From NCBI GenBank assembly GCA_030672885.1, contig DAOVFN010000012.1:1-10840 (forward strand): a stretch of DNA of 10,840 nucleotides, written 5' to 3'. The DNA is from Candidatus Aenigmatarchaeota archaeon. GTDB taxonomy: Archaea; Aenigmatarchaeota; Aenigmatarchaeia; QMZP01. Positions 3,081-8,708 of the stretch are shown here, in pieces (position 1 is the stretch's first letter; each line of letters starts with the position of its first letter). The translations under genes and the position numbers were made by a program. The notes under the pieces were generated by a model that was not told where the DNA came from, ran no database searches, and saw nothing but the letters and a program-made list of their open reading frames with translations.

Positions 3081-3140
3081 TCCGCATAACTTAATAGATT
3101 GTGCCCCCGTAGCTCAGCTGGATAGAGCACTGGCCTTCTA

Positions 3141-3201
3141 TGGGCCTCTTCAGGTTTAGAAGGGTTGAGCCCTGGCTCAGGCCAGGGTGATGAGAGAGGC
3201 A
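3141..3201 (+). other. Canonical 37/38 intron of tRNA-Arg (61 nt)
   Basis: The anticodon stem CTGGC/GCCAG is followed by a 4-bp helix CTTC (3135-3138) with GAGG (3196-3199, one G-U), flanked by the bulges TA^T (3139-3141) and CA^A (3200-3202). Cutting after the second bulge base gives exactly the expected 37/38 junction. Inside, CCCTGGC (3170-3176) and GCCAGGG (3181-3187) form a 7-bp hairpin with loop TCAG. Confidence 0.85.
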
Positions 3202-3221
3202 AGCCAGGGGTCGCGGGTTCG

Positions 3222-3261
3222 AAATAAACTTTTTTCAAGAAAAGGCTTAAGCCAAAAGGAG
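3222..3261 (+). repeat. Conserved 5' block of the T-loop introns, copy 1 (tRNA-Arg)
   Basis: This 40-nt block, starting with the last exon bases, matches 3485-3524 at 37 of 40 positions without gaps. The differences are TT against CC at the start of the T-run and one C against T. The purine-rich half, CAAGAAAAGG then TTAAGCCAAAAGGAG, is unchanged. The intron ends are also alike: GAAAGAAGATTATGGAAAT at 3353-3371 here, GAAAGAGGTTTGGTAAAT at 3555-3572 in tRNA-Pro. Confidence 0.9.
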
Positions 3262-3370
3262 CTTCGCTTCACTTCGTTGCGCTTGCTTCCATTAATATGG
3301 AAGGTGGTCGGTGTCTTGGAGACCACATCCTCCTTGCTTAAGCTTCTTTTTTGAAAGAAGATTATGGAAA
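3224..3370 (+). other. T-loop (59/60) intron of tRNA-Arg (147 nt)
   Basis: The T-loop reads TTCGAA, then runs into unrelated sequence until T3371 followed by CCCTC and the acceptor strand. BHB geometry is complete: TTCG (3218-3221) pairs with TGGA (3365-3368) using U-A, U-G, C-G and G-U; the bulges are AA^A (3222-3224) and AA^T (3369-3371). Beyond this, CTTTTTTC (3229-3236) pairs with GAAAGAAG (3353-3360), and GCTTAAGC at 3245-3252 can pair with its second copy at 3336-3343. AAGGAG (3256-3261) pairs with CTCCTT (3330-3335). The core has two hairpins, CTTCCAT/ATGGAAG (3286-3303) and GTGGTC/GACCAC (3304-3326). The AAAT direct repeat at both ends makes the exact cut uncertain by a base or two; 3224-3370 gives a normal 7-nt loop. 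Its first 40 nt, with flanking bases, match those of the tRNA-Pro intron. Confidence 0.8.
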
Positions 3371-3386
3371 TCCCTCCGGGGGCGCT

Positions 3387-3399
3387 CATATATATAAAT
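3387..3399 (+). promoter_or_regulatory. TATA element of tRNA-Pro
   Basis: CATATATATAAAT begins three bases after the end of tRNA-Arg and lies about 30-38 nt upstream of the tRNA-Pro 5' end (3427). tRNA-Pro therefore probably has its own promoter rather than depending on read-through. Confidence 0.6.
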
Positions 3400-3484
3400 C
3401 GCAAGGGAAAAGATACAGGAGCCAATGGGGCTATGGTGTAGCTTGGTCTAGCATTGGAGCCTGGGGGGCTTCAGACCCCGGTTC

Positions 3485-3524
3485 AAATAAACCCTTTTCA
3501 AGAAAAGGTTTAAGCCAAAAGGAG
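3485..3524 (+). repeat. Conserved 5' block of the T-loop introns, copy 2 (tRNA-Pro)
   Basis: Second copy of the block at 3222-3261. Here the purine-rich part (3500-3520) faces only three bases on the other strand in the predicted fold, so most of it is unpaired, yet it is as well kept as the paired part. Confidence 0.9.
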
Positions 3525-3571
3525 TGCTCCTCCGAAACTTCGGAACACTTCCACGAAAGAGGTTTGGTAAA
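3488..3571 (+). other. T-loop (59/60) intron of tRNA-Pro (84 nt)
   Basis: The intron interrupts TTCAAA^T. The T-stem CCCGG/CCGGG and an intron helix AAACC (3489-3493)/GGTTT (3561-3565) are separated by exactly 7 nt on each strand, the 4+3 spacing of a BHB, but only two of the four central pairs (TTCA with GGTA) can form, so this is a relaxed version. The helix continues as TTTTC (3495-3499) with GAAAG (3555-3559). GGAGTG (3521-3526) pairs with CACTTC (3546-3551), and TCCGA/TCGGA (3531-3544) forms the tip. A competing local hairpin (3489-3511) is possible. AAAT directly repeats at 3485-3488 and 3569-3572. Confidence 0.8.
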
Positions 3572-3585
3572 TCCGGGTAGCCCCA

Positions 3586-5226
3586 TTACATCTTTTCCAG
3601 AATCCCCGCTACCCTTTCCTGCCCTAGGGCCAGGATGAACGGAGCGAGCCTGGGACCGGAATCACTGTTTATCAGGACCTTGTAGGTTGCACTGAAGAAA
3701 TCAGGCGCTGTTATGCCGTGCTTCTTGGAGATGTCCCAGAACATGTCATAGAGTTCTTCTTCCCTCAGGGGCTTTCCAGACAGCCTCCTGGCAAGGTCAC
3801 CTAGGGCAGCCTTCTGGCCACCCGAAAGCCCTGACAGTGCCTTGGGGTCAGGTCTCTCTGAGACCTCTATCCTGTAGTGCGGGGCAGCATAGAGCCTGGC
3901 CCAGTTCCCTGCAAGTTCGAGCCTTTTCTTCACTGCATTGAGCTCTGTTTTTGAGGGCCTGTCTCCCAGGTGGCCTGTTGACTGGAGTATGCTCACAGCC
4001 CTGTCCAGGAAGCCCCTGCCTGACACCACCTGGCTTATCACAGAGGCGAACTGGTAGGGAATCCTGAGCGGCATCCTTTTGGGCATGTCCTTGCTGGACA
4101 TCCAGTACTGCCTCATGACATTCTTTTTCTCCCTTATGTTGCTCTCTCTTTCCTTGCCGAAGTATATCCTCTCAGATCGCTCGAAGTCATCTATGAGAAG
4201 TATGATGTTCTCCAGGTCAAGGTCCCGCTGCTTGGCGGGCTTCTTGGTGTAATAGTACAGGAACGCCTCGGGCTCCATTATCTTCAGCATGTCCTGAACT
4301 ATGTAGACGTTTCCCACAGAGGCGGACATCTTCTTCCCGTTCACGAGGAAGAACTCGTAGACGAATGGTATGGGAGGCTCGATATCAAAGACCTTCCTGG
4401 CTATCTCCTGGCCACTTATCCAGGAGCCTGCTGCGTGGTCCTTGCCGAATGGCTCGTATGTTGTCCTGAAAATCGACCACATGGCCGCCCATTCGAAACG
4501 CCATTGCAGCTTGCCCTCGCTCCAGGGAATCTCGCCCCTGAAGCCGCACCCCTCACTCTTCCTCTTCTTTATGGCCTTGCCACCGCAGGTGAAGCAGACC
4601 CTTTTGCTCTTCAGGTCGAATGAGCTCACATTGGCAAGGCGGCCGCACTCCGGGCATATCGCGTCAAATGGAATGTAATCACTGGACTTGGTCTTCTGGT
4701 ACCTGGATACAATCTCCCCTGCCTTGCCAGCCCTTTCAAAGACCATCCTGATGCAGGACTCGAACCTTCCCTGCTTGTAAAGCTCGTCCACTGAGTAGAG
4801 TTTTGGATTCATCCCCAGGGCATGGACGCCGTCCATCCATACTTTGGTAAAGTGCTCTGACCAGGAGCTGCAGCACCCGAACGGATCGGGTATCCTGCAC
4901 AGTGGCATGCCCAGGAACCTTGATATGTTCTTGAACCTTGCTGATTCGTGCCACCTGCCGTCGAGGTCAGTGAGCCTTTTCGGGACGTCCTTGAGGGGGT
5001 CCCTGTCGTCTGTGGTGTGGACGAAATCGGCTCTTATCCCCTTCTCGAGCAGGGACTTGTACGGAAAATATGCCCTGGCCACGTCATTAAGGTTGCCTAT
5101 GTGCTTGCCCCCCGACGGGGTCTGCTGGCACTTTATGTTAGGGGGTCTCTTCTCCCTTCTGGAGCGCTCGATAATCCTGTCAGCGAGCTGGTCTGCCCAG
5201 AACAGGGACTGCGCCTCTTTTTTCAT
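3586..5226 (-). CDS. lysS: Class I lysyl-tRNA synthetase
   Basis: A 546-residue enzyme that attaches lysine to tRNA-Lys with ATP in the cytoplasm. It is the class I (LysK-type) form found mainly in archaea. TPSGGKHIGNLND holds the HIGH-type signature (HIGN at 42-45, the usual form in this family) and GKKMSAS (297-303) the KMSKS-type loop. Two cysteine pairs, CPECG (191-195) and CFTCGG (211-216), fit the zinc-binding insertion, and GKDHAAGSW (261-269) is another family block before the C-terminal helical anticodon-binding part. Length is normal and the gene looks intact. The start is ATG at 5226-5224. A TATA-like element 25 nt upstream suggests a leaderless transcript. The gene lies 46 nt after scpB on the same strand, and its stop codon touches the 3' end of tRNA-Pro on the other strand. 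Confidence 0.95.
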   Translation of the reverse strand: MKKEAQSLFWADQLADRIIERSRREKRPPNIKCQQTPSGGKHIGNLNDVARAYFPYKSLLEKGIRADFVHTTDDRDPLKDVPKRLTDLDGRWHESARFKNISRFLGMPLCRIPDPFGCCSSWSEHFTKVWMDGVHALGMNPKLYSVDELYKQGRFESCIRMVFERAGKAGEIVSRYQKTKSSDYIPFDAICPECGRLANVSSFDLKSKRVCFTCGGKAIKKRKSEGCGFRGEIPWSEGKLQWRFEWAAMWSIFRTTYEPFGKDHAAGSWISGQEIARKVFDIEPPIPFVYEFFLVNGKKMSASVGNVYIVQDMLKIMEPEAFLYYYTKKPAKQRDLDLENIILLIDDFERSERIYFGKERESNIREKKNVMRQYWMSSKDMPKRMPLRIPYQFASVISQVVSGRGFLDRAVSILQSTGHLGDRPSKTELNAVKKRLELAGNWARLYAAPHYRIEVSERPDPKALSGLSGGQKAALGDLARRLSGKPLREEELYDMFWDISKKHGITAPDFFSATYKVLINSDSGPRLAPFILALGQERVAGILEKM

Positions 5227-8198: not shown

Positions 8199-8708
8199 AT
8201 GGCAATAACGGTTCTCAGGTTGGGGCACAGGCCTGCAAGGGACAAGAGGATAAGCACGCATGTGGGCCTTGTTGCAAGGGCGTTCGGAGCTGACAATCTT
8301 TTCTATAGTGGCCTGAAGGACTCCTCGCTTGAGGATTCCATACACGGTGTGGCCAGGCAGTGGGGAGGCTCCTTTGGCGTGGCCCACGTCAGGGACTGGA
8401 GAGCCCTTATCAGGGACTGGAAGGGAAAATCGGTTCATTTAACCATGTACGGAATGCCGCTCCAGAAGAGGATGGGGCAGATAAGAAAGGTCAGTGACCT
8501 GCTGATTGTTGTGGGAGGGGAAAAGGTCCCGCCCGATGTTTACAGGATGGCCGACTGGAACGTTTCCATTACGTCACAGCCCCATAGTGAAGTAGCTGGC
8601 CTGGCAGTCTTCCTGCACGAGTACTTCCAGGGCAGGGAGCTTGAGAAGAAATACATGGGTGCCAGGAAGAGGGTAATACCGCAGGCAAGGGGCAAGAGGC
8701 TCGTGTGA
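8199..8708 (+). CDS. trm56: tRNA (cytidine(56)-2'-O)-methyltransferase Trm56
   Basis: A 169-residue SPOUT-class methyltransferase that puts a 2'-O-methyl group on C56 in the T-loop of archaeal tRNAs, using S-adenosylmethionine. The start VLRLGHRPARDKRISTHVGL and VARAFGADNL is the family's hallmark N-terminus (5-33). The C-terminal knot that binds the methyl donor is seen as LLIVVGGEKVPPDVYRMADWN (101-121) and QPHSEVAGLAVFLHEYF (127-143). Length is normal. The position it modifies lies three bases before the intron site of both tRNA genes in this window, so modification before and after splicing may differ. The start codon is the first in-frame ATG after the TATA element. Confidence 0.93.
   Translation: MAITVLRLGHRPARDKRISTHVGLVARAFGADNLFYSGLKDSSLEDSIHGVARQWGGSFGVAHVRDWRALIRDWKGKSVHLTMYGMPLQKRMGQIRKVSDLLIVVGGEKVPPDVYRMADWNVSITSQPHSEVAGLAVFLHEYFQGRELEKKYMGARKRVIPQARGKRLV

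Follow-up and report, generated by a model that had tools for sequence, protein, structure and literature searches.

T-loop introns of two neighbouring archaeal tRNA genes probably belong to a mobile BHB-intron family built on a two-hairpin element

Introduction

According to the available portions of two reports, similar introns are spread among different tRNA genes in the Thermoproteales, where non-canonical positions and several introns per gene occur and such introns were already called transposable elements in a meeting report (PMC4033280, PMC10714607). The sequence-only reading that preceded this work had placed introns outside position 37/38 mainly in Crenarchaeota, a view which is out of date, as the accessible text of later reports documents them also for Thaumarchaeota (PMC8450103), Asgard archaea (PMC11291895) and ARMAN (PMC4033280). 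Within the Asgard Atabeyarchaeia and Freyarchaeia, the consulted section of the source gives 228 tRNA introns in three genomes, often non-canonical, with more than half of the tRNA genes holding several introns (PMC11291895). For the epsilon2 type of splicing endonuclease, acceptance of non-canonical motifs is stated in the part of the source at hand (PMC12397907). The available text on REP/BIME and their REP-associated tyrosine transposases describes short palindromes that frequently alternate in orientation (PMC2817692). By what route archaea acquire introns is a question of long standing. Reverse splicing and copying back is the usual idea for the transposition of archaeal tRNA introns, and eukaryotic introners are mobile sequences that become introns on insertion.

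Here, a stretch of 10,840 nucleotides (the window) from the DPANN genome of a Candidatus Aenigmatarchaeota archaeon (74% complete) was analysed. We consider it probable that the T-loop introns of its two tRNA genes represent a mobile archaeal bulge-helix-bulge (BHB) intron family, which is built on a two-hairpin element (R1), would be removed by an epsilon2 endonuclease and has spread within genomes.

The tRNA-Arg(UCU) and tRNA-Pro(GGG) locus

The two tRNA genes are located between a gene without Pfam match (1737-2726) and a convergent gene for a class I lysyl-tRNA synthetase, with the following features:

3103..3140, plus strand: tRNA-Arg(UCU) exon 1, positions 1-37, placed by ARAGORN on the gene minus both introns
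3141..3201, plus strand: tRNA-Arg(UCU) canonical 37/38 intron, 61 nt, central helix 4/4, without R1 match
3202..3223, plus strand: tRNA-Arg(UCU) exon 2, positions 38-59
3224..3370, plus strand: tRNA-Arg(UCU) T-loop 59/60 intron, 147 nt, central helix 4/4
3224..3291, plus strand: first R1 core of the Arg T-loop intron, flush with the 5' splice site (71.5 bits, E 3.8e-16)
3298..3365, minus strand: second, inverted R1 core of the Arg T-loop intron, forming a head-to-head doublet (49 bits, E 2.2e-10)
3371..3383, plus strand: tRNA-Arg(UCU) exon 3, positions 60-72, with 3384 as discriminator G
3427..3487, plus strand: tRNA-Pro(GGG) exon 1, up to position 59, without 37/38 intron
3488..3571, plus strand: tRNA-Pro(GGG) T-loop 59/60 intron, 84 nt, central helix 2/4 only, relaxed
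3487..3553, plus strand: R1 core of the Pro intron, its first base being the last exon base (83.2 bits, E 3.9e-19)
3554..3571, plus strand: 3' tail of the Pro intron, predicted to pair with the intron start and to hold the 3' splice-site side
3572..3584, plus strand: tRNA-Pro(GGG) exon 2, with 3585 as discriminator A
3586..5226, minus strand: class I lysyl-tRNA synthetase (LysS), convergent neighbour; the order Arg-Pro-LysS also occurs in locus L032

Neither ARAGORN nor Rfam (at E<=1) finds a tRNA in the raw window. Once all introns are taken out, the two genes are recognized by ARAGORN as tRNA-Arg(tct) and tRNA-Pro(ggg). The T-loop introns at 59/60 that the sequence-only reading had proposed, 147 nt long in Arg and 84 nt long in Pro, were confirmed. 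That reading had recognized the T-loop break of the Arg gene and missed its second one, the canonical 37/38 intron at 3141-3201. Removal of the 37/38 intron alone leaves ARAGORN without a tRNA call, and removal of the T-loop intron alone makes it misplace the 37/38 intron and call Ala(tgc). A single T-stem mismatch (50:64) remains in the mature tRNA-Arg(UCU). The same window encodes aTrm56 (8199-8708, by Pfam), the enzyme that methylates T-loop C56, a residue adjoining the 59/60 intron site.

R1, a two-hairpin element common to both introns

The common part of the Arg and Pro T-loop introns is R1, an element of 69 positions. In 16 aligned copies, its first hairpin is formed by pairing of UAAGCCUUUU with AAAAGGCUUA and is followed by unpaired AGCCAAAA and then by a GGAG...CUUCC hairpin with a bulged U. 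Double changes were found at 13/20 pairs among the 16 sequences from this genome, whereby 39 double-change cells were observed versus 11.3 in shuffles, with 0/500 shuffles reaching 39. When 102 matches from related genomes were fitted to the model, 92.4% of the cells were paired and double-change cells amounted to 295 as compared to 84 in shuffles. Conservation in 28 copies of the genome drops sharply beyond the core, except for the upstream T-loop consensus.

A covariance model of the introns, the check proposed earlier, detects three cores in the window with E 4e-19, 4e-16 and 2e-10, the 16 sequences behind the R1 model including the Pro core and the first Arg core, not the inverted Arg core. 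Two details of the sequence-only reading had to be corrected: the intron cores, taken there to be unrelated, both hold the same two-hairpin R1, which the Arg intron carries twice (forward and inverted), and the 37/40 identical first bases given there amount to 34/40 in register (34/37 when counted over the first 37). Head-to-head double cores were also found in Lys(CUU) on C17 and in a Leu gene on C37. A group I intron was discarded, as Rfam gives no such match in the window at E<=1.

Copies of R1 in the genome

With the Pro intron as BLAST query, 19 matching stretches were obtained from the genome, the window's own two counted in. With the R1 model, at least 28 copies reach E<1e-6 and 47 rows E<=10; the former number is a lower bound because 150 of 295 first-look candidates were scored. 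Inside tRNA genes, as placed by program and by eye, are 22/28 copies, 16 of them in T-loops (three being inverted second cores) and six in anticodon loops, versus 0.2-0.33 expected when 200 nt are assumed per tRNA gene. One further copy is located inside the RNase P RNA gene (L018 394-443), which was recognized by Rfam with 55 bits and E 4e-13, below the gathering score of 84, another one 2 nt past the 3' end of the 23S rRNA and one on the strand opposite to the 5S gene, at a distance of 95 nt; three copies (C22, C43, C49) have no Rfam match nearby.

The position of R1 relative to the splice site was measured by script for 15 of the 22 tRNA copies, of which 13, all in sense orientation, could be placed, and in 13/13 the core begins at the first intron base or up to 2 nt ahead of it. 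The tails following the core in these copies are 6 to 21 nt long, or 77-81 nt if succeeded by an inverted second core. In the genome, 12 places score with the Rfam tRNA model at E<=10, and by reading, eight of these (one spanning two contigs) carry a T-loop intron and four do not. A tRNA-Met is apparently split over contigs C107 and C38 of G000, the ends of which overlap, with R1 both in its anticodon-loop intron and in its T-loop intron.

Further kinds of T-loop introns were noticed. By eye, a second dispersed family (AACCCTTTTGGACAGGCAAGCGTCCAAAAGCGTTC...) occupies the T-loops of the Asp and Arg(UCG) genes of the same genome, and two copies of it lie in the T-loop intron of the L032 Pro gene (loci L032, L023, L005). 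A third family (CCGCAGAGGGCTTCGGACGCAAGTCTGCATG...) is located in the T-loops of Ser(CGA), Ser(UGA) and Glu(UUC) (L006, L029, L014), with 77/81 identity between the two Ser introns and 70/81 between Ser and Glu. Short T-loop introns of yet another kind (TGCGTTGCTGGC...CCAGCA...) were seen in tRNAs of C13, C37 and C45 (L027, L025, L004), and arrays of other short repeats (GCTTGTGCCTGCTTGTTCGC...) adjoin a Leu tRNA gene on C49 (L011).

Evidence for splicing

Our own tRNA finder, used at a score of at least 19 (one false call per 154 kb of base-shuffled sequence) on loci that came from R1 or Rfam matches, called 16 tRNA genes of the genome, 15 with a T-loop intron. ARAGORN reads 0/15 of the latter in raw form, 15/15 with the T-loop intron removed and 0/60 after shifted removals; for 26 genes of related genomes the respective values are 3/26, 24/26 and 6/104, whereby the anticodons given by ARAGORN are unreliable where a gene keeps a 37/38 intron. 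This removal test is not fully independent because the finder requires a rejoined T-stem. More independent is the test of BHB pairing, in which pairing was scored between the exon 4-mer that precedes the 5' bulge and the intron 4-mer preceding the 3' bulge (the L116 GGA call and loci L168-L169 being set aside). Mean central-helix pairing at the 59/60 junction was 3.33/4 for the genome (n=15) and 3.92/4 for its relatives (n=24), and at most 2.47 at 24 other offsets. All four pairs are formed in 9/15 T-loop introns of the genome and in 22/24 of its relatives, and only 2/4 at the predicted junction in the Pro, Ala(CGC), Glu(CUC) and Trp introns of the genome.

The BHB motif ascribed earlier to both window introns hence needs to be graded. 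With 4/4 pairs, the Arg intron shows the archaeal BHB form, i.e., a 4-bp central helix and 3-nt bulges which hold the splice sites; the Pro intron represents a relaxed motif because its central helix reaches 2/4. The genome encodes a three-unit splicing endonuclease of 403 aa, which belongs to the epsilon2, ARMAN-type enzymes and aligns over its full length with ARMAN-2 EndA (4fz2; residues 10-403 with 12-387, E 2e-96). We infer that the T-loop introns are cut out by this enzyme and that the tRNA exons are subsequently ligated.

The failure of ARAGORN and Rfam to recognize any tRNA in the window would also follow if the interrupted genes were disrupted pseudogenes. This reading was rejected as highly improbable: each of the 15 called T-intron genes of the genome is recognized as a tRNA when its intron is taken out, the maximum of BHB pairing falls on the junction, the Arg body is conserved in its L032 orthologue (53/54), and intact second copies of tRNA-Arg(UCU) or tRNA-Pro(GGG), named earlier as part of what would speak for pseudogenes, were not found in the 74%-complete genome.

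Spread within genomes versus descent

Where a tRNA could be compared with its orthologue from another genome as well as with a different tRNA at home (orthology being assigned by anticodon alone, and the stretches of the relatives having been selected by R1 content), T-loop introns were found to be nearer to the different tRNA at home in 21/24 cases and nearer to the orthologue in 3/24, without ties. For the exons, the orthologue is nearer in 28/34 cases (paralogue 5, tie 1), and for the 37/38 introns (n=22) the paralogue in 13 and the orthologue in 8 cases, with one tie. The T-loop introns of Pro and Ala match at 77/83 positions (19 gap columns), and whole introns are common up to the splice sites between the T-loop introns of Pro, Ala and Glu, of Arg and Lys and of Ser and Glu; among the 37/38 introns, those of Glu and Ser match at 71/73 positions.

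A direct comparison is offered by L032, which is part of a MAG deposited as Ca. Aenigmatarchaeota and, by its matches, the same genome as G002. The body of the window's Arg gene differs from the syntenic L032 Arg at one of the 54 positions; its 37/38 intron is alignable (z 5.3) and its T-loop intron is not (z 0.9). The Pro T-loop intron reaches z 5.2 over a gapped alignment, and on this basis the Pro T-loop introns of the window and of L032 may have some relation. Outside tRNA genes, the T-loop copy of tRNA-Lys aligns with an intergenic copy from ATAAGCC to CTTCC, stopping at both ends, and the two have nested modules in common. Taken together, these comparisons document, at the level of sequence, a spread of the R1 intron family within genomes, from tRNA to tRNA and elsewhere, as opposed to descent. 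The earlier suggestion that such spread between tRNA genes took place outside Crenarchaeota is borne out by the 21/24 T-loop introns that are nearer to other tRNAs at home.

A mobile element would be unneeded if short-tract gene conversion between tRNA genes had homogenised the introns, and both the similar exons around the T-loop (GGTTCRA), which could seed recombination, and the fact that the nearest introns are those of other tRNAs at home suit this explanation. We regard it as unlikely, since exon flanks differ where introns are near-identical, as in Pro and Ala with bodies matching at 29/49 positions only, and copies are present at sites without tRNA homology (intergenic, 16S gene, RNase P RNA gene).

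R1 in related genomes

In a search with stricter filters and at most 83 candidates scored per genome, R1 was found at E<=0.01 in at least 37/61 genomes, this one counted in, which corroborates the earlier idea of a T-loop intron family in related genomes. Matches per genome were highest for G016 (39), followed by G011 (33), the window's genome (28) and G021 (24); within the family of 24 genomes the range is 0 to 39, nine genomes being without R1 match. Across the phylum set, with at most 32 candidates scored per genome, at least 25/156 genomes have R1 at E<=1e-5, and 18 of these 25 belong to the same order (again counting this genome). Genomes reached via named loci have R1 at E<=0.01 in 3/14 cases. 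The LysS relatives were deposited as Aenigmatarchaeota, Micrarchaeota and Woesearchaeota, together with one Clostridia MAG, and five labelled Woesearchaeota with 30-32% LysS identity (L041-L045) gave one single weak match (E 0.0025).

The more R1 a genome holds, the fewer Rfam-visible tRNAs it has, with rho of -0.73 for the 24 genomes of the family, -0.58 for the 41 of the order and -0.50 for all 61, values which are corrected for completeness and uncorrected for kinship. Most of the tRNA genes seen in the window's genome escape the finders run (ARAGORN and the Rfam tRNA model), two being above the Rfam cut-off. Claims of missing tRNAs would hence need care for such genomes.

In 60 stretches from relatives, which were picked for R1 content, 102 R1 matches were obtained at E<=1e-3. 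Program classification covered 81 of the best 84 among these (the 18 weakest were left out) and assigned 22 to T-loops, 7 to anticodon loops, 2 to elsewhere in a called tRNA and 50 to places outside called tRNAs; the L116 GGA tRNA call, which holds two matches, is probably false. Reading 43 of the 50 uncalled matches by eye placed about 21 in or against tRNA genes missed by the program, in D-loops, T-loops and anticodon loops and in part antisense, and about 19 outside visible RNA genes, the remaining ones being one copy in a 16S gene, one at the 3' end of a 5S gene (G011) and one beside a tRNA 5' fragment. The family proposed earlier is supported, its designation as a distinct T-loop family being too narrow, as R1 also occurs in anticodon-loop and D-loop introns, in 16S, in RNase P RNA and between genes. 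As suggested by the sequence-only reading, the introns might shield the tRNA genes from integrases. The 16S copy interrupts the rRNA near its 3' end in G016 (L123 503-550), its central helix is fully paired by eye (GTCG with CGAC), and it is possibly an rRNA intron.

The alternative that R1 is a non-mobile cellular RNA-processing signal, e.g., an endonuclease-recognised hairpin recruited at many RNA genes, finds support in the copy that follows the 23S 3' end at 2 nt and in the one starting at the 5S 3' end in G011, and a structure kept by compensatory changes is in line with it. Given that match numbers vary from 0 to 39 within one family, that nested modules and inverted doublets exist and that about 19 of the 43 eye-read copies are outside visible RNA genes, a mere processing signal appears quite improbable.

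A model for the movement of R1

In the suggested model, R1 begins in tRNA transcripts at the 5' splice site or no more than 2 nt away from it, whereby the short 3' tail would pair with the 5' exon and complete the bulge-helix-bulge. Excision by the epsilon2 splicing endonuclease would then restore the T-loop. The core itself would travel as a palindromic DNA element with its machinery encoded elsewhere, and insertions into RNA genes would persist where the endonuclease can remove them. Among the modes of movement this one is held to be the most likely, and we give it somewhat less than an even chance. Slightly more tentative still is the proposal that R1 acts as an archaeal introner, i.e., an element the own fold of which makes insertions spliceable and through which BHB introns arise de novo in the genes for tRNA, rRNA and further RNAs. 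If this holds true, a short, palindromic and mobile introner, relying on an endonuclease of broad specificity and preferring T-loops, would by now break up a large fraction of the tRNA genes in some DPANN genomes.

Several candidate movers were considered. Neither a reverse transcriptase nor a Y1 transposase was found in the window's genome (74% complete), and movement driven by RAYT/IS605 or RT was set aside for it. Among ten genomes, one has a reverse transcriptase (G001, without R1 match) and one a Y1 transposase; the latter is G016, the genome richest in R1, so the Y1 route may operate in some genomes. Tyrosine integrases (PF00589) were rejected, as they are present in 9/10 genomes, two of them without R1 (G027, G028), and therefore do not discriminate. 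Viral carriers were dismissed likewise: two core patterns have no exact match in viral contigs and the introns have no phage match. A general target-site duplication was not seen, flanking repeats of at least 6 nt being present in 2/31 non-tRNA rows (one copy counted twice) and in 2.3% of 930 control pairs, and the second of the repeat-flanked rows (L117) sits in another repeat. In the first one (L137, about 490-610), the repeat on both sides of R1 is a 16-nt direct one and represents a tRNA 5' end, a tRNA fragment being left beside the whole gene.

Spread at the RNA level would mean that excised introns reverse-splice into BHB-capable transcript sites and are then copied to DNA. Whole introns being alike up to their splice sites between tRNAs with different bodies, the strong bias of R1 to stable RNA genes and the core start at the 5' splice site are what this route would be expected to leave behind. 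We nevertheless judge it rather unlikely: the 74%-complete genome yielded no RT and the sole RT genome of the ten is without R1, cores move without their tails (Lys T-loop versus intergenic copy), and copies occur between genes, antisense and in tandem. Whichever way R1 moves, its many copies allow a single element to be traced through tRNA, rRNA and intergenic sites of related genomes, with 0 to 39 matches per genome in one family, and gain, loss and movement are hence directly comparable.

Comparison with known systems

As judged from titles and the openings of abstracts, with subscription journals thinly covered, no such intron family was found in the literature for DPANN archaea. The three-unit endonuclease described for ARMAN (Micrarchaeum) matches the one identified here and non-canonical introns occur there as well; unlike for R1, the available parts of these sources mention no intron family shared between genes (PMC12397907, PMC4033280). 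Similarly, the accessible text on the Asgard tRNA introns makes no mention of a common mobile element (PMC11291895), in which they differ from R1. With REP/BIME, as far as the consulted portion of that literature describes them, R1 has in common that it is short, palindromic and often found in alternating orientations; it differs in that the window's genome is without Y1 transposase and its R1 copies are located mainly inside tRNA introns. Compared to eukaryotic introners, R1 would be removed by the tRNA splicing endonuclease instead of the spliceosome, and its hosts are mainly RNA genes.

Closest are the Thermoproteales introns, which, in the available descriptions, resemble those built on R1 in that related introns are found in different tRNAs of one genome, the exons of which are less alike. 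The R1 introns differ from them by belonging to another lineage, by the ARMAN-like epsilon2 endonuclease and by the dominance of the T-loop site. The R1 introns are further characterised by an explicit two-hairpin element, which in the genomes studied here is also present between genes, in the RNase P RNA gene and in the 16S gene of one relative. Measured against the portions of the literature at hand, the spread of introns between tRNAs is known from the Thermoproteales, and what is new is another lineage, the T-loop dominance and the occurrence of the element outside tRNA genes.
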